A stretch of DNA of 22,581 nucleotides. Origin: a virus. The first letter of the stretch is position 1. Every line of letters begins with the position of its first letter. The stretch is taken from positions 1-22,581 of IMG/VR virus record IMGVR_UViG_3300043775_000510; one strand, given 5' to 3'. Position numbers and translations under genes: made by a program. Positions 293 to 14,321 of the stretch are shown here, piece by piece. The notes under the pieces were generated by a model. It had not been told where the DNA came from. It made no database searches and saw only the letters and a program-made list of their open reading frames with translations.

Positions 293-820
293 TTAAGCAA
301 GTCCATTTTTCAATGCCCCCCAAGTTCCGTTGCCACCAACTGAGCCAACAATAATCACACCAGTTGAAGCATTTACTTTTGCAACTACTGCAACTGCTCC
401 TGATCCACCAGTAGGAATTGAGTTTGTAAGACCTCCACCATTTGCAACATAAAGAATGTTTCCAGCGGTATATGAAGAAGTATCAACATTTTCAAACACT
501 CCAGATACAATAATAACGCCATCTGTAGCAGTTGAAATTGCTGCTTGTGTTATTCCTATCATTGGAAAAGTTGTTAAATCATCTGAATCGCATTTTGCAA
601 TTAATGGTTTTGTTGAATACCCTGAAATATAGACAGGAGTTCCTTTTGCAATTGTTGCACCTGTTGTATTTCTAACTTCAAGTGAAATAAAAGGAAGACC
701 TACGTTTGAAATAACATCTTCTATACGCTCTGCTAATGACTGAATATCCTCATGGACATTTACAGGGTCAGTTAAAACGGGATAAGGAAGATCATAAGTT
801 GTAGTTGCGCCAGTAGCCAT
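293..820 (-). CDS. Putative tail-fibre/virion structural protein
   Basis: This 175-residue protein starts MATGATTTYDLPYPVLTDPV, with a short helical N-terminal part (about 20-38, NVHEDIQSLAERIEDVI) and then a beta-rich, Gly/Thr/Val-rich body (45-175). No catalytic motif is visible. The N-terminal attachment helix followed by repeated GxVxVVAKV/GVIIVG-type strands is common in phage tail-fibre and virion decoration proteins. Its end, G-T-W-G-A-L-K, resembles the DGTWGAF near the end of the protein at 9700. It sits in the minus-strand tail gene block, immediately upstream of the left-edge gene. Start chosen at the ATG at 820; there is no clear ribosome binding site, but a TGGTATAAT sits 10 nt upstream. 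Confidence 0.75.
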   Translation of the reverse strand: MATGATTTYDLPYPVLTDPVNVHEDIQSLAERIEDVISNVGLPFISLEVRNTTGATIAKGTPVYISGYSTKPLIAKCDSDDLTTFPMIGITQAAISTATDGVIIVSGVFENVDTSSYTAGNILYVANGGGLTNSIPTGGSGAVAVVAKVNASTGVIIVGSVGGNGTWGALKNGLA

Positions 821-830
821 AGTACTTATT

Positions 831-839
831 ATTATACCA
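831..839 (-). promoter_or_regulatory. Extended -10 element before the gene at 820
   Basis: Minus-strand TGGTATAAT ends 10 nt before the ATG at 820, in the intergenic region shared with the divergent lysozyme-like gene. It matches the extended -10 consensus TGnTATAAT exactly. A transcript would have only a few leader bases and no ribosome binding site. Confidence 0.5.
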
Positions 840-885
840 CTTCACCTAATAAAAATTAAAAAGTTATAGAAATGTTACCTAAAGT

Positions 886-915
886 TTGACTTTGAGACCA
901 AATTCATGTTATAAT
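886..915 (+). promoter_or_regulatory. Sigma-70-type promoter of the lysozyme-like gene
   Basis: TTGACT (886-891), 18 nt spacer, TATAAT (910-915) with an extended TGT just before it. Start of transcription expected near 921-922, which puts the hairpin at 922-941 at the very 5' end of the mRNA. Confidence 0.75.
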
Positions 916-921
916 TAATAC

Positions 922-945
922 ATGCTACTAACAAGTAGCATTTTT
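922..945 (+). promoter_or_regulatory. 5' leader hairpin followed by a short T run
   Basis: ATGCTAC (922-928) and GTAGCAT (935-941) form a perfect 7-bp stem with loop TAACAA, followed by a run of T (to 945). It begins at the predicted transcription start and precedes the ribosome binding site AGGAGG (953-958). It could stabilise the 5' end of the mRNA or act as a weak attenuator. Confidence 0.55.
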
Positions 946-966
946 AGTCTCTAGGAGGTTTTTATT

Positions 967-1512
967 ATGAGAAGAGATAAAAAGGCTTGGATTGGAATCC
1001 TAGCATTGGTAGGGGTTGTTGCACCATTTAGCAATTTTGCCAATGCATCAACTACGGAAAACAACTTACTAATTAAACAGGCTGAAAACCCTGCTGCCAC
1101 CCACAAGGTGGCTTTTGTTGTTTCTAAAGCAAAAATGTTAGAACGTTATGAAAACAAAACAAATCTTACAGATATTGAATTAAAGAAGTTGCTTTCTTTG
1201 GTGGGATTTAAAGGCAACGACTTGGTGGTGGCGTGGGCTATTGCCAAGAAAGAATCTAATGGTCGTCCCTTAGCATTTAACGGAAACCATAAGACTGGGG
1301 ACTCCTCATATGGAATGTTCCAAATTAACATGATTGATACACTGGGTCCAGATAGACGAGATAAGTTTGATCTTGACTCTAACGCTGAATTATTCAATCC
1401 CGTCAAAAATGCTGAGATTGCATACTACATGTCTAGGGGTGGAGAAGATTGGTCTTCTTGGAAGGGCATAACACCTAAAACTAGAATGTGGATGAATAAA
1501 TTTCCTAAATAG
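967..1512 (+). CDS. Secreted lysozyme/lytic-transglycosylase-like protein
   Basis: The 181-residue product has a typical Sec signal peptide: basic MRRDKKAW, a hydrophobic core (residues 8-20) and an ANA-S cleavage site near residue 27. The catalytic domain (about 70-181) has the SLT/lysozyme-like signature: A-I-A-K-K-E-S-N-G with the likely catalytic Glu96, then SYGMFQINM (114-122), N-P-V-K-N-A-E-I-A-Y-Y-M (144-155) and D-W-S-S-W. These motifs fit enzymes that cleave the glycan strand of peptidoglycan, so it may act in host lysis or wall penetration. A signal sequence would let it leave the cytoplasm without a holin. It stands alone on the plus strand between minus-strand tail genes, with its own promoter, a good AGGAGG site and a terminator. 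Whether it is a muramidase or a transglycosylase cannot be decided by eye. Confidence 0.85.
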   Translation: MRRDKKAWIGILALVGVVAPFSNFANASTTENNLLIKQAENPAATHKVAFVVSKAKMLERYENKTNLTDIELKKLLSLVGFKGNDLVVAWAIAKKESNGRPLAFNGNHKTGDSSYGMFQINMIDTLGPDRRDKFDLDSNAELFNPVKNAEIAYYMSRGGEDWSSWKGITPKTRMWMNKFPK

Positions 1513-1528
1513 TTTTATATAAAGATTT

Positions 1529-1561
1529 ACCCCCTTGGATCTTGTCCTTGGGGGTATTTTT
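1529..1561 (+). terminator. Rho-independent terminator after the lysozyme-like gene
   Basis: ACCCCC (1529-1534) pairs with GGGGGT (1550-1555); an inner GGA/TCC pair closes the loop, and a T-rich tail (ATTTTTA) follows. It lies between the convergent genes ending at 1512 (+) and 1576 (-). Confidence 0.75.
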
Positions 1562-1575
1562 ATATAAGAACAATT

Positions 1576-2316
1576 TTATCTAAATATTTTTTTATGCCAA
1601 AAACTTTTTTTATAAGAATCTTCAAAATGTGTAGTATTAACTGTTGAATCTTTATATTTTTCTTTATAATCTTCATCAGACATGTAAACTTCTGAAATAA
1701 ATTCATCTCTTTTAAATGGTATTACTTGAACCATTGGGGTTCCAGTTTTAAAAACCCCTTCAAAACCTTTTTCGTTCATCTGAAAAGGAAAGTTTACTGG
1801 ATGCTCAAAAGTGTCAGTATCTACTATTCCAGGCATAATTGTAAATGGAAGACCTCTATGCATTGGTGTAGTAAATAAACAAGAATATCCTGGAGGTGTT
1901 TTAATTATCCAAGGATTAATAAATTTTGGCAATCCTTTTAAATGAACTCCAGAGTGCGGGTATCCTTCAACCTGTTCTATATTATGTGACTCAATTGGAC
2001 ATTCTGCAGTCCATGCAAAATGTGTTTTATAATCTTCATCGCCTGGATTTTCTCTTGATTGAAACACGGTTACATCGCTTGGTATTTTTAGTATATATCC
2101 AGCAGTTAAAGTATCAAAAACTGGCATGCATTTTTTAATAGTAGAGTTAGTTTGTCTAGTTGAAACTCCATTTTTTTTAATATAACTACCTTCAACTACT
2201 TTGTTTTTTACAAAAATAGGAGCATCTTTATACCATTCAGGCATAAAGTTAATAGAAGGTTCTGGAGGTGGAGTCTCCAATATAAGACTATTTATAAACT
2301 GTATAACGTTTGTAAT
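1576..2316 (-). CDS. DUF6065-like protein, unusual start codon
   Basis: From the first accepted start (TTG at 2280) it has 234 residues. Homology to the copy at 12159 continues upstream, through I-L-E-T-P-P-P-E-P-S-I-N-F-M-P-E-W-Y, so translation probably begins earlier. The frame is open back to a TAA at 2329-2331 and holds no ATG or GTG; ATT at 2316 follows a GGGGG purine tract at 5 nt, and CTG at 2328 is another option. Conserved family features: C-M-P-V-F-D-T-L-T-A-G-Y, P-S-D-V-T-V-F, I-I-K-T-P-P-G-Y-S-C-L-F, L-P-F-T-I-M-P-G-I-V-D-T-D and G-T-P-M-V-Q-V-I-P-F-K-R. These match the general layout of DUF6065, a family of unknown function with a probable beta-barrel fold. It is the last gene of the minus-strand run. 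The exact start is unsure; the coding call is firm. Confidence 0.75.
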   Translation of the reverse strand: MTNVIQFINSLILETPPPEPSINFMPEWYKDAPIFVKNKVVEGSYIKKNGVSTRQTNSTIKKCMPVFDTLTAGYILKIPSDVTVFQSRENPGDEDYKTHFAWTAECPIESHNIEQVEGYPHSGVHLKGLPKFINPWIIKTPPGYSCLFTTPMHRGLPFTIMPGIVDTDTFEHPVNFPFQMNEKGFEGVFKTGTPMVQVIPFKRDEFISEVYMSDEDYKEKYKDSTVNTTHFEDSYKKSFWHKKIFR

Positions 2317-2651: not shown

Positions 2652-2894
2652 TTATTCCATCTCCTTAGTATAAGACACTCTTACTGCCTCCCACTTTCCA
2701 AGTGGGCATTTTGCATTTGGTAATGATGTTTTTAGTTTCATTACACATCCACATTCCTTGCATTGTCCTGTTATTTTGATAAATCTTGGACATTCATTAC
2801 AGATAGAAAGTCTTTCTTCCTGTATTTTTTCTGTAACCTTTCCAATATTTTTATTGAAAAGATCCCATGGCCTTGCAGGTCTATCATTTTCCAT
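2652..2894 (-). CDS. Six-cysteine zinc-ribbon-like protein, paralogue 1
   Basis: This 80-residue protein carries the pattern P-W-D-L-F near its start, then R-L-x-I-C-x-x-C (Cys32, Cys35), C-x-x-C-G-C (Cys45, Cys48, Cys50) and A-x-C-P-x-G-K-W (Cys63). The spacing suggests a bound metal, probably zinc. Two more copies with the same pattern are at 7644 and 13337. It differs from them in a 13-residue tail after the GKW. Start is the ATG at 2894 with AGGGG upstream and an extended -10 (TGGTATAAT) 14 nt upstream. The function is unknown; a role in virion assembly or protein binding is only a guess. Confidence 0.8.
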   Translation of the reverse strand: MENDRPARPWDLFNKNIGKVTEKIQEERLSICNECPRFIKITGQCKECGCVMKLKTSLPNAKCPLGKWEAVRVSYTKEME

Positions 2895-4477: not shown

Positions 4478-5179
4478 TTAAAGAGTTTCCCAGAGATGCT
4501 TTTCTAATTGATACCGTTCTTCAAAATTAGGAACATTCCTATAGTCGCAGCACTTACATACTGGTCGCCCATCGGAATAATCTGGGGTTGACCAGTATCC
4601 CATCTTTGCTCTAAATTTAAAATCTGCTTCATGTCCATGTCTATTAAACCCATCGGTTGAGCCTTCTACAAAAAACCAGTGATCAGGTTCTGCAAATTGC
4701 ATAAATAGCAGGTGCACAAACTTATCCTCATCTTCTGTAGGAAACTCTGGTCTCCAGTGCATACTGTCATTCCCACAAAACACAATACAGTCATTTGGCT
4801 GCTCATCATAAAAAACATCATCTACTGCTAATTGCCAGTCAACATTCTTGTCAATACAAATATCTAGTGAATACTGACAGGCTGATTGATCATAGTGTTT
4901 CCATAGTTGTGGTTTGATACCGTTTTGCTTTTGGTATCTGCCAGTGTGAAATCCTGCTCTAAGAAGGGTATCAGAGCCAAATGCCTTCTTTGCTATTTCT
5001 AGAATTTCTGCTTCTGTTTCAAGGTCAAAGCGTACTTCCTCTAACCATCTACCTGCAACGGTGTGATAAAAATGTGGTCCATCAGGTCCTAGATTCATTT
5101 CTAGTATTTGCTTCTTTATCTTCTCAAATAGTTCTGCTGGAAGGAAGTTCTTAATTGATCTTGTGTCTACAGTTTTCAT
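4478..5179 (-). CDS. 2OG-Fe(II) dioxygenase-like protein with Cys-rich tail
   Basis: Starting at ATG 5179, which overlaps the stop of the upstream gene as ATGA, it has 233 residues. A longer frame back to 5245 exists but has no support. The Fe(II)-binding facial triad is visible as H95-Y-D97 (W-K-H-Y-D-Q-S) and H141 (M-H-W-R-P). The distal block H-L-L-F-M-Q-F-A-E-P-D-H-W-F-F is shared with the gene at 5176, so the two are paralogues. The C-terminal part (185-233), absent from the paralogue, contains C-K-C-C-D. These enzymes use 2-oxoglutarate and O2 to hydroxylate a substrate, often a protein side chain. It ends the modification cassette. The target is unknown. Confidence 0.8.
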   Translation of the reverse strand: MKTVDTRSIKNFLPAELFEKIKKQILEMNLGPDGPHFYHTVAGRWLEEVRFDLETEAEILEIAKKAFGSDTLLRAGFHTGRYQKQNGIKPQLWKHYDQSACQYSLDICIDKNVDWQLAVDDVFYDEQPNDCIVFCGNDSMHWRPEFPTEDEDKFVHLLFMQFAEPDHWFFVEGSTDGFNRHGHEADFKFRAKMGYWSTPDYSDGRPVCKCCDYRNVPNFEERYQLEKHLWETL

Positions 5180-5727
5180 TCTTGCTCCATTCTTTTTGTT
5201 TTTAAAATTTCTTGAATATGTTCTGGCCCTTTTGTAAACCACCAATGATCTGGTTCAACATAATGGAAAAATACTACTCCAATCTTACCAGTATTATTAT
5301 AAAGGGTTTCTCTCCAATGTTCATACTCTTCACCCATGAACATGATTGCTTCATTTGGCATTGCTGTATATGCTTTGCCATCTACATATAGGGCCCAAGG
5401 ATCTCCTTGATAAAGAACTAAGTCAAGGGTATATGTGCAAGCATTTGCATCTTTGTGCTTGTGAAGACTAATAGTTTCATCAGAATACTCTGCAAATAAT
5501 GAATATGATGGAAGCATAGTCTGACTTCCAAAGTATTCTCTTGCTATTGGCAACAGTATTTCACTAAACTCTTTTAATATTGGCTCCGATTGATCTCCCG
5601 CTAATTTTCTACCAAACTCGTCAGTTCCCACAGATTTTAATCCTTCGTGATTTTTAAAATGCATACGAAGTCTATCAAAGTCTCTTGGGTTTAAAACATT
5701 TTTAATTAATCCAACTTCTTTATTCAC
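5176..5727 (-). CDS. 2OG-Fe(II) dioxygenase-like protein
   Basis: A 183-residue protein starting at GTG 5727, preceded at 4 nt by AGGAGG; this GTG overlaps the end of the methyltransferase gene (stop at 5720). The HxD motif is H91-K-D93 (L-H-K-H-K-D-A-N), followed by beta strands C-T-Y-T-L-D-L-V-L and the distal His137 (E-H-W-R). The end F-F-H-Y-V-E-P-D-H-W-W-F matches the downstream paralogue. The fold expected is the double-stranded beta helix of 2OG-Fe(II) oxygenases. The usual Arg or Lys that binds 2-oxoglutarate is probably Lys148 but this is uncertain. Its gene overlaps both neighbours, so co-translation is likely. Substrate unknown. Confidence 0.8.
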   Translation of the reverse strand: MNKEVGLIKNVLNPRDFDRLRMHFKNHEGLKSVGTDEFGRKLAGDQSEPILKEFSEILLPIAREYFGSQTMLPSYSLFAEYSDETISLHKHKDANACTYTLDLVLYQGDPWALYVDGKAYTAMPNEAIMFMGEEYEHWRETLYNNTGKIGVVFFHYVEPDHWWFTKGPEHIQEILKTKRMEQE

Positions 5728-6310
5728 TTATCCTCCTAACAATAACTAGATAACTATCATTATATTCTGTTTTATGAGTATCTGTTAAGTCTATATATTC
5801 TACAGCATATTTATTTATTTGTGATTCTAATTTTGACTTCCATTTTTCTACGTCTAAGTCTTTAATATCTTCTATAATATATACCCCTTCATAATTTAGC
5901 CATTGGGATACTTCTAAAAATGTGCTATATGTTAATTCAAAGTTATGTGAAGCATCATCAATTATTAAATCATAAAATATTTCATTAGTCTTATATCTAA
6001 AGTCTTTAAATGTATCAATATTGTTTTGATCGGCATAATAAGAAAATACGTCATCTTCATTAATCAAGAAATCAAGATTGTTGTCTACAAAAAATAATTT
6101 AGCATTTGGATATAAAACTTTCCATGCATTTTTTGAAAATCCTAGGCCAATGCCTATTTCAAATATATTTTTAACAGAATATCTATCTTTAAACAGTTTT
6201 GAGTATGCTTCGTGGTATCCATGATCTCTTGCTTTATCAGTTCCACATAGGTTAAAATAGTATTCAAACATGTTAGATTGAAGAATGTGCCTATCTAATG
6301 TCTTATTCAT
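5720..6310 (-). CDS. SAM-dependent methyltransferase, MycE-like sugar O-methyltransferase
   Basis: The 196-residue product starts at ATG 6310, whose reading frame overlaps the last codons of the glycosyltransferase; a longer frame to 6418 runs antisense-free through that gene and is not needed. Motifs: C-G-T-D-K (22-26), G-Y-H-E-A-Y-S-K-L-F (31-40), the SAM-binding loop F-E-I-G-I-G-L-G-F-S (50-59), D-L-I-I-D-D-A-S-H (114-122) and G-V-Y-I-I-E-D-I (142-149). This order (GTDK, xExGxGxG, IDDASH, YIIED) is that of the metal-dependent MycE/macrocin O-methyltransferase-like family, which methylates sugar hydroxyls. Sitting next to a glycosyltransferase, it may cap a sugar with a methyl group. The acceptor is unknown. 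Confidence 0.8.
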   Translation of the reverse strand: MNKTLDRHILQSNMFEYYFNLCGTDKARDHGYHEAYSKLFKDRYSVKNIFEIGIGLGFSKNAWKVLYPNAKLFFVDNNLDFLINEDDVFSYYADQNNIDTFKDFRYKTNEIFYDLIIDDASHNFELTYSTFLEVSQWLNYEGVYIIEDIKDLDVEKWKSKLESQINKYAVEYIDLTDTHKTEYNDSYLVIVRRISE

Positions 6311-7088
6311 AGTACCTGGCCATATTAGAACTAAAGTAGTGGTGTATAAAAATTTTACTTTTATCTTGTTTGTCAAAATTAAGGCCAAGAGATATATCAT
6401 CTTCATCAAAATATTCATGCTGTATATTTAAGTCTTTAATAACAGAAAATGCAGAATACTGAGATATAGTCCAAAATAAAATATGATCATTAGAATTATT
6501 TAATTCATTATATATAACATTTGTAAAATGTGAAATTTTGTCCACAAGCATCGTCATAAAAAAATCAATGTGTGGTCCAAGTGCATTTTTTGAAACTATT
6601 ATTTGTCCATCATTTATTGCTGGCATTATATTTAAACTTAAGGTTAAATCGTTTACAACTTTATCATCTAATTCTTTTTTTAAATAAAATATATCTTTGT
6701 TATATTTATTAAATAATTCTTCTGGACTTTTATAAAATATAGTATCAGTATCTAAATATAGAATTTGATCTAAATTAAATCTTTTTAATGACTCTATCAT
6801 ATTGTGCCATCTGTGATGCAAATGCCTATTCCATGGGTATTCTGGAATTTTATCTGTCCATCTAACTAGTACATCCTCATTGTTAAACCGAACTAAACTT
6901 ATATTATTATCATTAAAAAAACTTTCTTTTGATAAATCAAATTTTGAAGAATAAAAAAATATTATATCTATATTAGAAAATTTTCTAATGCTTAATATTG
7001 ATTTTAGTATTTGTTTATAGTTATGATGTTGAGAATAATCATCGTCAAAATATAAAGAGTATACTATAGCCCTTTTTAAGCCATCCAT
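6303..7088 (-). CDS. Glycosyltransferase with DxD motif (GT-A fold, GT8-like)
   Basis: This 261-residue protein begins with a beta-alpha unit (A-I-V-Y-S-L-Y-F-D-D-D-Y), and has the hallmark D-Q-I-L-Y-L-D-T-D-T-I-F-Y at 107-119, with the metal- and nucleotide-sugar-binding D113-T-D115. Further on, A-I-N-D-G-Q-I-I-V-S and a C-terminal I-F-I-H-H-Y-F are like those in GT8-type and related nucleotide-diphospho-sugar transferases. It should transfer a sugar from a nucleotide-sugar to an acceptor in the cytoplasm. Its ATG overlaps the end of the hydroxylase gene by 13 nt, and its end overlaps the methyltransferase start. It is very AT-rich, more so than the tail genes. Whether the acceptor is hydroxylated protein, DNA or host glycan cannot be seen. 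Confidence 0.8.
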   Translation of the reverse strand: MDGLKRAIVYSLYFDDDYSQHHNYKQILKSILSIRKFSNIDIIFFYSSKFDLSKESFFNDNNISLVRFNNEDVLVRWTDKIPEYPWNRHLHHRWHNMIESLKRFNLDQILYLDTDTIFYKSPEELFNKYNKDIFYLKKELDDKVVNDLTLSLNIMPAINDGQIIVSKNALGPHIDFFMTMLVDKISHFTNVIYNELNNSNDHILFWTISQYSAFSVIKDLNIQHEYFDEDDISLGLNFDKQDKSKIFIHHYFSSNMARYYE

Positions 7089-7642
7089 TGAACCACCACA
7101 TACCTTAATCCATTTGTTACTGGATGAACTTCGTGATTATATATAAAATTTGATGGGAATATAAGAAGGTCATTTTTATTTGCTTTAAATCTAAGGCCAT
7201 GTCTTTTAAACTCAACATCTCCGCCTTCATATTCATCGTTTAGATAGTATGTTAAAGATATTCTTCTTGTAAAAAATGGATGATCGTCTATATGGTCATG
7301 AAACTTTTGCTCTTTGCCATATCTAAGCAATTGTGGATTTTCAAACTTTTCTATAGTTGCAGCATAATGACTTGTATACTGATCTAAACACACTTTCATT
7401 TTTTTGTGAAACTCTTTTGCAAAATCAGCAAGGATTCCAGATTCATTACTTTCATGATGAGGAAGCATGATAATATCAGTATCTCTGGCCTTTGTATTTG
7501 TTCCAGATTTATTTTCATTTTGATCAACAAGAACTTCTGCAGGTCTCCAAAAAATTCCTGCTTCTTCTATTTTTTTTATATATTCTATTGATTCAAGAAA
7601 TACATTTTCAAATACTACGACTCCTGGGGCTAATTCTTTCAT
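7076..7642 (-). CDS. Prolyl-4-hydroxylase-like 2OG-Fe(II) dioxygenase
   Basis: A 188-residue protein with all expected residues of the P4H-type 2OG-Fe(II) dioxygenases: L-L-R-Y-G-K-E-Q-K-F-H-D-H-I-D (HxD = His117, Asp119), L-T-Y-Y-L-N-D-E-Y-E-G-G-D-V-E-F (130-145), then F-P-S-N-F-I-Y-N-H-E-V-H-P-V-T-N-G-L-R-Y with the distal His170 and the 2-oxoglutarate-binding Arg180. P4H-like enzymes hydroxylate proline in proteins; a proline-rich repeat protein (8367) and a collagen-like protein (10642) are nearby. The gene starts 1 nt after the stop of the six-cysteine gene and overlaps the glycosyltransferase. The family match is strong; the substrate is inferred. Confidence 0.88.
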   Translation of the reverse strand: MKELAPGVVVFENVFLESIEYIKKIEEAGIFWRPAEVLVDQNENKSGTNTKARDTDIIMLPHHESNESGILADFAKEFHKKMKVCLDQYTSHYAATIEKFENPQLLRYGKEQKFHDHIDDHPFFTRRISLTYYLNDEYEGGDVEFKRHGLRFKANKNDLLIFPSNFIYNHEVHPVTNGLRYVVVQWMA

Positions 7643-7643
7643 A

Positions 7644-7871
7644 TTACCACTTTCCTATTGGACACACTGCTAGTTCTAGTTTAGTTTTTGCTGCCATAAA
7701 ACATCCACATTTTTTGCATGTTTTTGTTGCTTTTATCAGTTCTGGACACGCCTTGCAAATTTCATATCTAGCATCAGAGATTGACTCATCCTCTACAAGT
7801 TTGCTATGATCTAATAAATGCCATGGTCTTGTTTCACCAAGGTTTTTTTTCCATTCTTCCCATTTTGACAT
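7644..7871 (-). CDS. Six-cysteine zinc-ribbon-like protein, paralogue 2
   Basis: 75 residues from the ATG at 7871 (AGGGG 8 nt upstream); a GTG at 7880 in frame is a weaker choice. It has the family pattern: R-P-W-H-L-L, I-C-K-A-C, C-K-K-C-G-C-F-M-A-A-K and A-V-C-P-I-G-K-W at the very end. The closest copy is at 13337, which shares C-G-C-F-M-A-A-K; the copy at 2652 is more distant. It heads the modification cassette and is separated by 1 nt from the hydroxylase gene, so it may be part of the same function, for example as an adaptor. That role is a guess; metal binding is likely. Confidence 0.8.
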   Translation of the reverse strand: MSKWEEWKKNLGETRPWHLLDHSKLVEDESISDARYEICKACPELIKATKTCKKCGCFMAAKTKLELAVCPIGKW

Positions 7872-7889
7872 TTTCCCCACCCCTTTTGT

Positions 7890-8318
7890 TTATGCTCTAT
7901 TAATAATATTTTGTCCATCCCAGATATCGCCTATTCTAGCAGTTTGGCCTTCTGGAACTTGAATTATAGTTGTTTCATCAGAAAAAATTGCATTATATTG
8001 ATCATTCATTACGGTGCCAATGCTAGTTAAAAATGCACCAACAATTATATTATTACAAAGATATCCAAAAGTATTAATTGATGACCAATCGTTATCTAGC
8101 GGAACAAGAGATGTACTACCACCAGTAAATTCTGTACCATCAAAAGTTGCACCACTTGATGCTGACCACTTGTAAGGGGTCAAAACCATTCCAGTAATTG
8201 GAAGGCCACTTTCTACTGCAGCAACCAGTCTATCTTGTTTTTCTTGATTTGCTGGATATGCAAGAAAATTAAAAACATCCCAAGTTTCTTCACTATTTTT
8301 TACTACACAAGCGTACAT
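7890..8318 (-). CDS. Putative tail structural protein
   Basis: 142 residues, starting MYACVVKNSEETWDVFNFLA, with a strong site (AAAAGGAG) before the ATG. The middle is beta-rich with Gly/Ser/Thr; it ends A-R-I-G-D-I-W-D-G-Q-N-I-I-N, an ending type frequent in phage tail-fibre and fibre-associated proteins (V-G-D-x-W-x-G-x-x-F/I). No catalytic motif is seen. It lies between the proline-repeat gene and the modification cassette, on the same strand, which supports a virion role. The function is not known. Confidence 0.75.
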   Translation of the reverse strand: MYACVVKNSEETWDVFNFLAYPANQEKQDRLVAAVESGLPITGMVLTPYKWSASSGATFDGTEFTGGSTSLVPLDNDWSSINTFGYLCNNIIVGAFLTSIGTVMNDQYNAIFSDETTIIQVPEGQTARIGDIWDGQNIINRA

Positions 8319-8366: not shown

Positions 8367-8960
8367 TTAAATTGGACATGGATTCGCACATGAAGAGTCT
8401 ACGACTTCTCCAATACAGTTAGTTCCACATGTTTGGCCTGGTGGTGTAACAGGTGGAGTAACAGGTGGAGTAACAGGTGGGGTAACTGGAGGAGTTACAG
8501 GTGGGGTAACTGGAGGAGTTACAGGTGGGGTAACTGGAGGAGTTACAGGTGGGGTAACTGGAGCAGGAGTAACTGGAGGATTAACTGGAGGATTAACTGG
8601 AGGATTAACTGGAGGACTAACTGGTGGAGTTACAGGTGGAGGAGGTGGTGCAACTGGTGTAAAAGAATTGCTTGCTGCAGAGTTGAGTGAATCTTGAACG
8701 GTATTATTTAATTTAACAACAGCAGTATAAGAAACACCATTTGTTAATCCAGTTACCGATATTGGACTAGAAGAACTTGTTCCAGTAACCGATCCTGGAG
8801 TTGTTGTTGCGGTATAAGTTAAAGATGTATTTGGTTTACCAGTGTAGTCTGGGGAAGTAAAGGCAATTGAAGCACTTGCATTTCCTGCTGTTGCGCTTCC
8901 AATTGTAGGTGTTCCTGGTTGACGACCAGCAGATGACTGCGATCCACTGTTGACTGGCAT
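8367..8960 (-). CDS. Fn3-like protein with long Pro-Pro-Val-X repeat stalk
   Basis: 197 residues: a short Ser/Gly-rich N-terminus, one Fn3-like domain (about 13-100, with T-P-T-I-G-S-A-T-A-G-N-A-S-A-S-I-A-F and G-L-T-N-G-V-S-Y), then about sixteen PPVT/PPVN/PPVS units (about 105-175), then a small C-terminal domain with four cysteines (C-G-T-N-C, C-A-N-P-C). The repeat should form an extended polyproline II rod that holds the Cys-rich tip away from the Fn3 base. Its start lies 1 nt after the stop of the gene at 8962. PPV repeats resemble substrates of prolyl hydroxylases in plants and algae, and a P4H-like gene lies two genes downstream. A tail or surface fibre role is likely. Confidence 0.85.
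   Translation of the reverse strand: MPVNSGSQSSAGRQPGTPTIGSATAGNASASIAFTSPDYTGKPNTSLTYTATTTPGSVTGTSSSSPISVTGLTNGVSYTAVVKLNNTVQDSLNSAASNSFTPVAPPPPPVTPPVSPPVNPPVNPPVNPPVTPAPVTPPVTPPVTPPVTPPVTPPVTPPVTPPVTPPVTPPVTPPGQTCGTNCIGEVVDSSCANPCPI
8440..8640 (-). repeat. Coding tandem repeat of 12/24 bp units (PPVX repeat)
   Basis: 12-bp units encode PPVT/PPVN. Three identical 24-bp units occupy 8476-8499, 8500-8523 and 8524-8547, with a partial fourth; a second array of 12-bp units with the core GGAGGATTAACT lies at 8575-8622. Exact identity at silent positions indicates recent slippage or unequal recombination rather than old duplication. Confidence 0.9.
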
Positions 8961-10641: not shown

Positions 10642-11370
10642 TTAACAGACTGAGATATAGATACCTTTAAGCCAAATGCTGCTTTCTGAATCTGTTCTTG
10701 CTTGTGGTCTTGCACCATAACCTTTAATTCTTTGATCATCCATATAGATTGTTTGAAAAAATGACATGTCGTAAGAATACTGGTACTTAAGGTTTGCCAC
10801 ATAAGAGGTAGGAGAATTTGAATATTTTTCATTAAATGTTCTAAGCCATAACTCTGTATAGTTTGATTCAGTGGTTATTGTAAAATCATACCTTATATCA
10901 ACTTTAGCCCCTAGTTTTAAACCTTTAAAATTAAACATATTTATATCTGACAGCCAAAGTTCGTTGCTATTTTTCATAATGTAGTCTTGATTTGAAGACT
11001 CAAGGTTTGGATAAAAATTAATAGATACCCACCCATCATCTCCTCTTTGTGGTCCTAAAAGAGTAGTTTTATTTGATCCATTTTGATAATATGCCCATCC
11101 AGGGTATTGTCCTGAAGGTGAATCATAGCCTTCTCCGCCTCTACCAGGCTCTCCACGCTCTCCTTGTGGTCCAGGCTTACCTTGATCTCCTTTTGGCCCT
11201 GGTGGGCCTGCATCACCCTTATCTCCCTTGGGACCAGTTAATCCAGGTTCTCCTTGAATACCAGGAACTGCAATATATTGTTTTTCTAATTCTTGTGGGC
11301 TTGAAGATTTAACAGCATCTAAATAATTTTTTTTCTTTAAAGGTTGAGGCGGTTCCATGTTTTGTGCCAT
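10642..11370 (-). CDS. Collagen-like tail protein
   Basis: 242 residues. A charged N-terminus (1-36) is followed by 14 uninterrupted Gly-X-Y triplets (37-78), many with Pro in X or Y (G-E-P, G-P-P, G-K-P, G-P-K), and charged K/D/E/R residues that favour triple-helix formation. The C-terminal domain (about 85-242) is Tyr/Ser/Asn-rich and beta-rich, with no enzyme motif; it may be a trimeric tip. Phage collagen-like proteins form trimeric fibres. Pro in the Y position is the classic substrate of prolyl-4-hydroxylase, an enzyme type encoded at 7076. The start is the ATG at 11370; only a weak AGGTTG lies upstream, and the short gene at 11379 ends just before it. Confidence 0.87.
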
Positions 11371-12158: not shown

Positions 12159-12890
12159 TTGAAATTAAACAATAAGATAAAATTTTATCCAATAAACTCT
12201 GAAGTAGCAGAACTTATTGAATCTCCAACTCCTTCTTCTAAGTATAATATACCAGACTGGTTTAGAAAATTACCTAAGTATACTAATGGTGAATCTAAAT
12301 TTATTTATAATCATGAACCAAATTTAACAGTAAAATCTTGTCTTCCAGTAGTAGATGCCTTTACATCTGGATATACTATAAATCTTCATTGCGACATTCA
12401 AGTAACACAAAAAGATGGAAGAACGATTTTTCAATGGGCATATGAACAATATGGTGTGCCAGGACCAGTTAGACCTAGAGACACCATCGTGTCGTCGCAA
12501 AAGTGCGGGTGGAACAATATTGAAGGATATGAAGACCTTAATTTTGACTGGGTACCATCATGGTCAATAAAAACTCCAAAAGGATACAGTTCTATGTTTA
12601 CCCATCCAATAAATAGAGTAGATTTACCATTTTATACTTTAGGTGGAGTGCTTGATACAGATGGCTGGGGTGATGCAGGAAATCATCCATTTTTATTAAA
12701 AAAAGGATGGGAAGGCATAATAGAAAAGGGTACTCCAATAATTCAGGTAATACCATTTAGGAGAGAAAACTGGTTGTCTGATGTAGATAAGAGCATGACT
12801 AAAGAATATGACAAGCAGATAGGTAGAAGAGATAGTTATCTAAAAGATTATTATAAAAAATTTATATGGTCTAGCAAAAGTTATAAGTAA
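12159..12890 (+). CDS. DUF6065-like protein, paralogue
   Basis: 243 residues starting at TTG 12159, 6 nt after AGGAG. Family blocks: I-E-S-P-T-P-S-S-K-Y-N-I-P-D-W-F, S-C-L-P-V-V-D-A-F-T-S-G-Y, W-S-I-K-T-P-K-G-Y-S-S-M-F-T-H-P-I-N-R, L-P-F-Y-T-L-G-G-V-L-D-T-D, and G-T-P-I-I-Q-V-I-P-F-R-R. The same blocks occur in the copies at 1576 and 13536. The fold is probably an all-beta barrel; the role is unknown. It lies convergent to 12891, its stop directly abutting that gene's stop. It is the plus-strand gene served by the divergent region at 11882. Confidence 0.82.
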   Translation: MKLNNKIKFYPINSEVAELIESPTPSSKYNIPDWFRKLPKYTNGESKFIYNHEPNLTVKSCLPVVDAFTSGYTINLHCDIQVTQKDGRTIFQWAYEQYGVPGPVRPRDTIVSSQKCGWNNIEGYEDLNFDWVPSWSIKTPKGYSSMFTHPINRVDLPFYTLGGVLDTDGWGDAGNHPFLLKKGWEGIIEKGTPIIQVIPFRRENWLSDVDKSMTKEYDKQIGRRDSYLKDYYKKFIWSSKSYK

Positions 12891-13336: not shown

Positions 13337-13534
13337 ATGAGCGATGATGTAAAACCTTGGGATCTGTTTAATGGATCTCCTAGAAGCAGTGAAGAAATAG
13401 CAGCAACAAGATTAGAAATATGCAAAAGTTGTGAGTTTTTTAGACCCAGGACACAAACATGCCAAAAGTGTGGATGTTTTATGGCTGCTAAGTCTATGTT
13501 ACAAAATGCTAAGTGTCCTGTTGGAAAATGGTAG
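13337..13534 (+). CDS. Six-cysteine zinc-ribbon-like protein, paralogue 3
   Basis: 65 residues with the family pattern K-P-W-D-L-F (6-11), R-L-E-I-C-K-S-C, C-Q-K-C-G-C-F-M-A-A-K and A-K-C-P-V-G-K-W ending the protein. It is the shortest of three copies (others at 2652 and 7644). The start at 13337 is supported by the leaderless -10 and by alignment of the P-W-D-L-F block. It runs into the convergent gene at 13536 with only 1 nt between stops. A metal-binding role is probable; biological role unknown. Confidence 0.82.
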   Translation: MSDDVKPWDLFNGSPRSSEEIAATRLEICKSCEFFRPRTQTCQKCGCFMAAKSMLQNAKCPVGKW

Positions 13535-13535
13535 T

Positions 13536-14321
13536 TTAAGGTAATTGATGGTCTGGGAATTTGTTTTTATATATATCCATTCCACGCATATATAGTCGAT
13601 CAGGCTTATATTTATTATCTAATTTTACTTCTAGGTTAGTAAGAAGTCTTAAGTCACCATGATCATCATTTGCTTTATTTTCCTCTTCAACTTCTTCTTC
13701 AGTAAATATATCTGCAGCATCTTTTAATGTAAATCCATCTGCAAAATACCTAGGAATGGGAAGAATTCCAGCAATTGGCATTCCTTTTTTTAGAGTTGTA
13801 GTTATACCAGGAATCTGTAATTTTAAATTAAAAGTAAAAGGTCCTCTTATGTTATCTGTTTCAACAGCACCGCTCATAACTGTAATATTTGGAAGTACGT
13901 AGTTTGGCGGATTTATAGTCATTAGATTTACTCCAGGAGGAGTTCTTAAAAAAAATGGAGTTGCTATTGTTACTATACCGCTACCAAATAGGCTTGTTAC
14001 TTTAAAAAATTTATCATCATTGCTTTTTATAGTCAATGCGTCTTGACTTTCTCTTCCATCCCAACTTACTTCAAGGTCAAATGGTAAAGTAAGCATAAAA
14101 CCATACTGATTTGCTATTGATAGTGGAAGACATCTATAAAAATGATTTGTAAACCAAGATCTTTTCTTAGGTGGTTTCTGCAGAAGTTGAGATACTTCTT
14201 CAAAAGAAAGCATTGGTTTAAAGGGTGTTATTCTGTTGACGCTATCATCTACAACAGCAATAGTTTTATCTAAAAATATAGCGATAGTATTATCTGGTAC
14301 GTTGCTACCTTGGTTTATCAT
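13536..14321 (-). CDS. DUF6065-like protein, divergent paralogue
   Basis: 261 residues. It is the closest of the three to my memory of DUF6065: R-C-L-P-L-S-I-A-N-Q-Y-G-F-M-L, L-E-V-S-W-D-G, F-G-S-G-I-V-T-I-A-T-P-F-F-L-R-T-P-P-G, and S-G-A-V-E-T-D-N-I-R-G-P-F-T-F-N. The C-terminus has an acidic patch (E-E-E-V-E-E-E-N) and a helical end. Start ATG 14321 lies 5 nt after GGGGG. It follows the Cys-rich 45-aa gene by 27 nt on the same strand. Biochemical function unknown. Confidence 0.78.
   Translation of the reverse strand: MINQGSNVPDNTIAIFLDKTIAVVDDSVNRITPFKPMLSFEEVSQLLQKPPKKRSWFTNHFYRCLPLSIANQYGFMLTLPFDLEVSWDGRESQDALTIKSNDDKFFKVTSLFGSGIVTIATPFFLRTPPGVNLMTINPPNYVLPNITVMSGAVETDNIRGPFTFNLKLQIPGITTTLKKGMPIAGILPIPRYFADGFTLKDAADIFTEEEVEEENKANDDHGDLRLLTNLEVKLDNKYKPDRLYMRGMDIYKNKFPDHQLP

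Follow-up and report, generated by a model that had tools for sequence, protein, structure and literature searches.

Hydroxylated and glycosylated prolines are familiar from plants, animals and amoebae. In the extensins and arabinogalactan proteins (AGPs) of plants, repeated proline motifs are hydroxylated first and sugars are then added, by glycosyltransferases (GTs) of families such as GT77 and GT95. In the Skp1 pathway of Dictyostelium and other protists (PhyA, Gnt1, PgtA and AgtA/Gat1), PhyA hydroxylates Skp1 and Gnt1 then acts on the hydroxylated protein (PMC3515798). Among viruses, a prolyl 4-hydroxylase (P4H), vCPH, is encoded by the chlorella virus PBCV-1 (Eriksson et al., 1999, doi 10.1074/jbc.274.32.22131; structure 5c5t), and hydroxylation and glycosylation of collagen have been described in mimivirus (PMC8968730). 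The function of the 2-oxoglutarate (2OG)-Fe(II) oxygenase genes of phages has been stated to be uninvestigated (PMC9602691), and the viral use of P4H has been termed 'cryptic', collagen of tail fibres being hinted at as a target (PMC9301287). Analysis of the IMG/VR virus record IMGVR_UViG_3300043775_000510, positions 1 to 22,581 (22,581 bp; hereafter, the window), revealed a cassette of 2OG-Fe(II) oxygenase, GT and methyltransferase (MT) genes next to a gene for a proline-repeat protein. The evidence leans towards proline hydroxylation of this virion-associated repeat protein, with lineage-specific sugar decoration, a reading in which we infer the chemistry, the sites and the purpose. The chemistry is known, while its setting and genetic architecture are new: in the literature covered, outside which subscription papers mostly lay, phage prolyl hydroxylation received brief mentions only, and a phage cassette linked to a proline-repeat protein was nowhere reported. 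Aquatic phages often carry 2OG-Fe(II) oxygenases as auxiliary genes, and this locus offers a concrete candidate for a substrate.

Six overlapping or abutting genes run along the minus strand from 7880 down to 4478, in the order DUF6171, P4H-like oxygenase, GT, MT and two divergent oxygenases, named OG2 and OG3. An initial annotation of the window had given this cassette as 4478-7871, and its coordinates and gene order were correct, with the end at 7880; the six-cysteine leader protein that it described was identified as DUF6171, the first gene (7644-7880). The genes concerned, in order of transcription, are:

10642..11370, minus strand: collagen-like fibre protein (PF01391, 4.8e-7)
8367..8960, minus strand: proline-repeat protein of 197 amino acids (aa), the probable substrate
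7890..8318, minus strand: linker gene between the proline array and the cassette, with tblastn matches in some relatives
7644..7880, minus strand: DUF6171 six-cysteine small protein (PF19668, 2e-6; phrog_13558, 8e-17)
7076..7642, minus strand: P4H-like 2OG-Fe(II) oxygenase (PF13640, 1.7e-16)
6303..7088, minus strand: GT8-like (GT-A) glycosyltransferase, accessory, in the variable slot (AlphaFold model; DxD motif at residues 113-115)
5720..6310, minus strand: MycE-like S-adenosylmethionine (SAM) methyltransferase, accessory, in the window clade only (phrog_21658, 1.7e-10; MycE 3ssm, E=0.005)
5176..5727, minus strand: OG2, divergent 2OG-Fe(II) oxygenase (phrog_2954 group, 1.8e-13)
4478..5179, minus strand: OG3, divergent 2OG-Fe(II) oxygenase, the last core gene (phrog_2954, 4.5e-11)

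The proline-repeat protein proved to be the constant neighbour of the cassette. IMG/VR was searched with OG3, GT and P4H queries, which yielded about 50 contigs (given here as L numbers), and the 34 loci with more than 1 kb of sequence upstream of the cassette were examined for a Pro-rich open reading frame (ORF), defined as at least 12 prolines per 40 aa on the same strand within 3 kb upstream. Such an ORF was present in 33 of the 34, at a median distance of 450 bp, and the sole locus that failed the criterion (L118) is a distant P4H-like match and not the cassette. After five loci that had been fetched by the array pattern were set aside (L064, L097, L118, L142 and L155), all 29 loci found through the enzymes carried the Pro-rich ORF, although these are not 29 independent events but about five or six lineages, and the counts overstate independence because the loci share ancestry. 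Control 3-kb windows elsewhere in the same loci contained such an ORF in 0 of 78 cases. The link between a PPVX protein and the cassette that had been suggested at the outset is thus supported, and a search for relatives with the cassette but without a Pro-rich protein found no case among the 29. In a reverse scan for PPVx-encoding DNA, 40 loci had arrays of at least five units, and 7 of these carried cassette genes, some of the seven being the same phage, versus 2 of 80 other loci (Fisher p=0.006). One distant phage recovered in that scan (L142) has the array, DUF6171 and an OG3 fused to P4H in a 456-aa frame (575-1945, minus strand).

In the product of 8367-8960, the N-terminus is fn3-like, the C-terminus is short and Cys-rich, and between them lies a PPV(T/N/S) array, the tandem repeat detected by TRF at 8438-8641. 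The repeat is PPVT or PPVV in most loci, PPPIIAT in L179-L182, PIIAT in L178 and L183, PPFF or PPYF in L187, PVPV in L024 and a looser PAPV in L038. Proline is the sole residue common to all of these types, the array of L018 being composed of Pro, Val and one Ile only and that of L187 of Pro, Phe and Tyr only; this suggests that proline is the residue that matters, in agreement with prolyl hydroxylation. Furthermore, the Pro codons are mixed within arrays and, in several arrays, many DNA units are distinct (20/22 in L008, 11/12 in L187), which fits selection on the protein. The 12.7-kb contig L187 encodes seven P4H-like proteins, with the PPFF/PPYF repeat gene directly upstream of the first.

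Other fibres of the same module were considered as the main targets of the enzymes (collagen-like, fn3 or glycine-rich proteins), in which case the Pro-rich protein would be a rigid spacer co-inherited in a late operon. The same module contains collagen-like genes, which a PF01391 search found in 12 of 20 related contigs, the closest solved relatives of the enzymes include collagen hydroxylases, and the P4H-type genes of one cultured phage, Sf-FS3, adjoin an S74 tail-fibre gene and are accompanied by no PPxx array. However, the collagen genes are not specifically adjacent to the cassette and none was found in the examined parts of the other 8 contigs, including L029 (43 kb) and L038 (54 kb), while the array gene is the constant neighbour, and its repeat units diverge while the proline stays. 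These observations make modification mainly of other fibres rather unlikely, and the collagen-like protein, initially proposed as a substrate beside the PPVX repeat, is not supported as the main one.

Sequence and structure comparisons agree with the enzyme classes assigned initially (a P4H-like oxygenase, a GT, a MycE-like MT and two further 2OG oxygenases), which are supported by profile matches, motifs and models of OG3 and the GT. The P4H-like protein matches PF13640 at 61.4 bits against a cutoff of 27 (1.7e-16), and in an alignment of 12 relatives H117, D119 and H170 are invariant and R180 nearly so. With a profile, its best PDB matches are prolyl 4-hydroxylases (3e-9), with vCPH 5c5t at 5.5e-6. 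As a single sequence, it matches best mimivirus L230 (6ax6, E=0.005), and because lysyl hydroxylases and PiuC are also among its best matches, its residue specificity is not settled by sequence; it is predicted to be a peptidyl proline C4 hydroxylase, for which linkage to the proline array provides indirect support. Mimivirus L230, like human LH3, joins a 2OG hydroxylase and a GT, in sequence and fused, but both act on lysine in collagen with another GT family, in a eukaryotic host, and have no link to a PPVx array.

The pairing of a 2OG oxygenase with a GT is also known from phage DNA modification, and the P4H-like protein has a weak match to Tet_JBP (E=0.006), as might be found if TET/JBP-like oxygenases hydroxylated a base that the GT then glycosylated. 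DNA hypermodification of this kind was rejected as very improbable: the Tet_JBP match lies far below its cutoff, versus 3e-9 for the profile to prolyl hydroxylases, the window showed no base methyltransferase, and the cassette lies among fibre genes and not among replication genes.

OG2 and OG3 gave no significant match in a Pfam search. They are mutually related, and an HxD motif and a distal H are invariant across their joint alignment. The AlphaFold model of OG3 (predicted local distance difference test score, pLDDT, 84) has the double-stranded beta-helix fold, and its nearest folds are HIF-type prolyl hydroxylases (PHDs), PBCV-1 vCPH and an algal P4H, at Z scores of about 13-14 (13.8 for vCPH, 5c5t_B). 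OG2 is a putative member of the 2OG oxygenase superfamily, assigned via the HxD...H shared with OG3. The ferrochelatase label that phrog_2954 carries in PHROGs and in many cyanophage records is probably wrong, because the OG3 model folds as a 2OG-Fe(II) oxygenase and carries HxD...H; no chelatase fold was encountered. DUF6171, the six-cysteine protein, is probably a zinc-ribbon. Like the enzymes of this locus, vCPH is a virus-encoded P4H, matched by both the OG3 model and the window P4H profile, and its reported substrates include both Pro-rich repeat peptides and collagen-like ones. It differs in being a single enzyme from a virus of a eukaryotic alga, and it is not known to be accompanied by DUF6171, by 2OG enzymes in tandem or by a linked slot of varying GTs.

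Comparison of the relatives distinguished a conserved core from a variable slot. DUF6171, P4H, OG2 and OG3 recur in this order, with DUF6171 on the 5' side in nearly all relatives, and between or after these genes lies a slot whose contents differ by lineage: the GT8-like gene with the MT in the window clade; the GT8-like gene alone in L030-L032; GT61, with or without a radical SAM/SPASM gene, in L008, L009, L012, L013, L015, L021-L023, L026 and L027; a uridine diphosphate (UDP)-glucose dehydrogenase with a fucosyltransferase-like gene in L010; an O-fucosyltransferase (O-FucT)-like gene in L178 and L183 (PF10250, 7.8e-4, below its cutoff); GT60 in L097 and L181; an epimerase in L019; and nothing recognised in L014, L028 and L029. 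The MT was found only in close relatives of the window, and the GT8-like GT in two lineages. GT-type genes occur near the cassette in 23 of the 34 loci, the window included, and a prolyl-hydroxylase-like enzyme, a Pro-rich acceptor and a GT occur together in the window and 22 further loci of the 34, three of which have OG2/OG3 and no P4H homologue. Because the core is kept while the slot varies, hydroxylation appears to be what the lineages have in common and glycosylation what varies between them, and because some relatives lack P4H, GT or MT, only the window's clade has the complete order of three steps. Radical SAM/SPASM genes are paired with GT61 in or after the slot in L008, L009, L012, L015 and L021-L023, and a further peptide or sugar modification by this pair is possible.

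The clear swapping of genes in the slot between P4H and OG3 would also suit an exchangeable auxiliary island at a tail-module hotspot, whose 2OG enzymes target proteins or metabolism of the host, for example through prolyl hydroxylation of EF-Tu or drawdown of 2OG, and whose sugar genes act on host surface glycans. A Pseudomonas P4H with EF-Tu is among the structural neighbours of OG3, and proposed roles of cyanophage 2OG genes lie in the nitrogen metabolism of the host (PMC3037559) or in its reprogramming (PMC9602691). Nevertheless, divergent lineages share both the DUF6171-P4H-OG2-OG3 order and its association with the Pro array, neither of which a hotspot needs, and the enzymes are encoded inside a structural module, so action on the host is considered quite unlikely.

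Four loci contain the core without a recognised GT nearby (L014, L028, L029 and L033), which raises the narrower alternative that only the first step of the proposed pathway occurs, with hydroxylation stiffening or stabilising a polyproline-II rod and the GT and MT acting on an unrelated target. The repeated recruitment of different GT families to the same slot argues otherwise, as does a gene of L038 (7394-8890) in which GT60 (PF11397, 2.9e-31) and P4H (PF13640, 6.6e-19) form one 498-aa ORF, and hydroxylation alone is regarded as unlikely. The fused gene is the best single hint of coupled hydroxylation and glycosylation. Separate GT60 genes occur in the cassettes of L097, L181, L219 and L262, and PF11397 scores against a cutoff of 21 were 109.7 bits in L038, 121.5 in L181 and 93 in L097. 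A scan for GT60 showed L219 to carry a PPVT array, DUF6171 and GT60, and L262 to carry DUF6171, GT60 and an OG3-P4H fusion (1166-2485). The window itself has no GT60, and a search of the GT60 domain against PDB sequences gave no match. Further 2OG genes surround the fusion in L038. The GT60 scan also recovered a large separate group of phages (L221-L261, comprising L223 and its relatives), which was excluded from the statistics; some members have a divergent OG3 upstream, and in many an acidic Pro-rich gene of the PTPEP type follows within a few kb downstream.

We take GT60 to be the family that holds the Skp1 hydroxyproline N-acetylglucosaminyltransferase Gnt1. The Skp1 pathway resembles the cassette in that a cytoplasmic P4H is followed by hydroxyproline glycosylation, and relatives of the cassette carry GT60, fused to P4H in L038. 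It differs in that a single proline is modified on a globular regulator rather than on a repeat, in the service of oxygen sensing rather than virion decoration, and its steps as described include no sugar O-methyltransferase (PMC3515798).

The GT of the window matched nothing in Pfam, PHROG or NCBIfam, and a PDB profile search gave chance matches only. Its AlphaFold model, of moderate confidence (pLDDT 71, three sequences), suggests a GT-A/GT8-like fold, with Z scores of 16.3 to LARGE1, 14.7 to glycogenin, 13.8 to LgtC and 13.2 to the Skp1 alpha-galactosyltransferase 6mw5, a further likeness to the Skp1 pathway; the motif is L-D113-T-D115-T, with DTD invariant in three homologues. In a phmmer search, the MT aligned with the SAM domain of MycE 3ssm (E=0.005), and the two proteins share the DDxSH and ED motifs at matching positions (D118, D119, H122, E147 and D148 in the 196-aa form of the MT). 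At 196-232 aa versus the 419-residue MycE chain, it aligns to chain residues 202-325 only, and the remainder of MycE outside the SAM domain is missing from it.

In the pathway proposed for the window, the P4H-like enzyme, OG2 and/or OG3 would use O2, Fe(II) and 2OG to hydroxylate prolines of the 8367-8960 protein, a step that is well supported, and would probably act on the nascent polyproline-II chain before it folds; DUF6171 might serve, at a guess, as a zinc adaptor or specificity factor. In an optional second step with moderate support, a cytosolic GT would add sugar to hydroxyproline, this being the GT8-like enzyme in the window and GT60, GT61 or an O-FucT-like enzyme in relatives. In the window clade only, the MycE-like MT would then methylate a sugar hydroxyl. 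Of the order first suggested for the cassette (hydroxylation, glycosylation, then methylation), the first two steps are favoured by the GT60-P4H fusion, while the GT and MT are not core genes and the MT is confined to the window clade; sugar O-methylation there is graded below glycosylation. Sugar genes swap among close relatives, as would be expected of surface decoration under diversifying selection, and the decoration might serve in shielding from proteases or polysaccharides, in adsorption or in evasion of recognition; virion shielding or adsorption tuning is speculation. The broader proposal, of a phage hydroxyproline O-glycosylation system in which the phage's own polyproline-repeat virion protein is hydroxylated and receives exchangeable, sometimes O-methylated sugars, such that tail-surface glycans vary between close relatives, is a tentative one, which we hold to be possible at somewhat less than even chances. 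Plant extensins and AGPs resemble it in having repeated proline motifs as acceptors, hydroxylated before sugars are added, but that system operates in the secretory pathway, and the window GT has no demonstrated sequence relationship to it. If correct, the proposal would describe the first phage route found to peptidyl hydroxyproline and its glycosides, hydroxyproline-linked sugars would join the known phage virion modifications, and compact enzymes from a bacterial virus might serve for making hydroxyproline-rich or glycosylated repeat proteins.

Besides the shared ancestry of the loci and the moderate confidence of the GT model, several observations weigh against hydroxylation and decoration of the proline-repeat protein. 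An Arg ligand for 2OG and PKHD-type matches alone do not separate prolyl from lysyl or other hydroxylases, and a purely structural demand for a polyproline rod would give the same pattern of repeats. L012, L015, L027 and L097 carry the array but no P4H homologue on the examined contig; they keep OG2-type or OG3 enzymes and GTs (OG3 only in L027), so either OG2/OG3 hydroxylate proline too, or the link is looser. Roughly one locus in three has no GT near the cassette, and only one clade carries the MT. The collagen-like protein is a possible second substrate. Finally, the array-less P4H-type genes of Sf-FS3, a cultured cyanophage, show that phage P4H-type enzymes have other substrates too.

Among 50,697 phage records, the window GT had no match, OG3 had 2 weak matches, OG2 had 26 weak matches, P4H had 246 (below 60% identity) and DUF6171 had 86. 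A scan of genome contigs with the P4H alignment for cellular relatives gave five remote matches only, and a search of the INPHARED phage collection found no near relatives of the window. The cyanophage 2OG-Fe(II) oxygenases (phrog_61 and phrog_2954) belong to the same sequence families and sometimes lie beside tail-fibre genes, as in Sf-FS3, but they are scattered, often several per genome, and have no PPxx array partner in the records inspected; no PPxx array with a cassette was found in S-CBS2, Sf-FS3, S-T4, S-SRM01, Moby, RHph_TM30 or X1. An apparent PPxx array in Sf-FS3 was discarded, being antisense to an annotated minus-strand gene. In this Synechococcus phage (L195, 7932-15544), genes for DUF6171, P4H, a 2OG oxygenase, epimerases, a methyltransferase, a GT, a sugar O-methyltransferase and UDP-glucose dehydrogenase lie in a row, as a second cluster besides the P4H-type genes that adjoin the tail fibre.

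With respect to gene calls in the window, an ATG start at 6310 for the MT (196 aa, overlapping the GT stop) is more likely than that of the longest ORF at 6418, and an ATG at 5179 for OG3 is more likely than a TTG at 5245. With these revised starts, each cassette gene abuts the next or shares 4-13 bp with it, an arrangement like that of a translationally coupled operon. The linker gene (7890-8318) has tblastn matches at 40-55% in L024, L064, L155, L179, L180, L182, L185 and L186. Upstream of the array gene in transcription order lie fibre-like genes, followed by the collagen-like gene; the region is called a tail module because the fibre-like neighbours match phrog_8780 (minor tail) and phrog_366 (tail fibre). 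DUF6171 six-cysteine proteins are encoded three times in the window (2652-2894, 7644-7880 and 13337-13534), beside fibre, 2OG or DUF6065 genes, and are also present in cultured phages in which no 2OG neighbour is annotated. DUF6065/phrog_7084 proteins likewise occur three times (1576-2280, 12159-12890 and 13536-14321), and relatives of the first of these are found in haloarchaeal tailed viruses and a few cyanophages.

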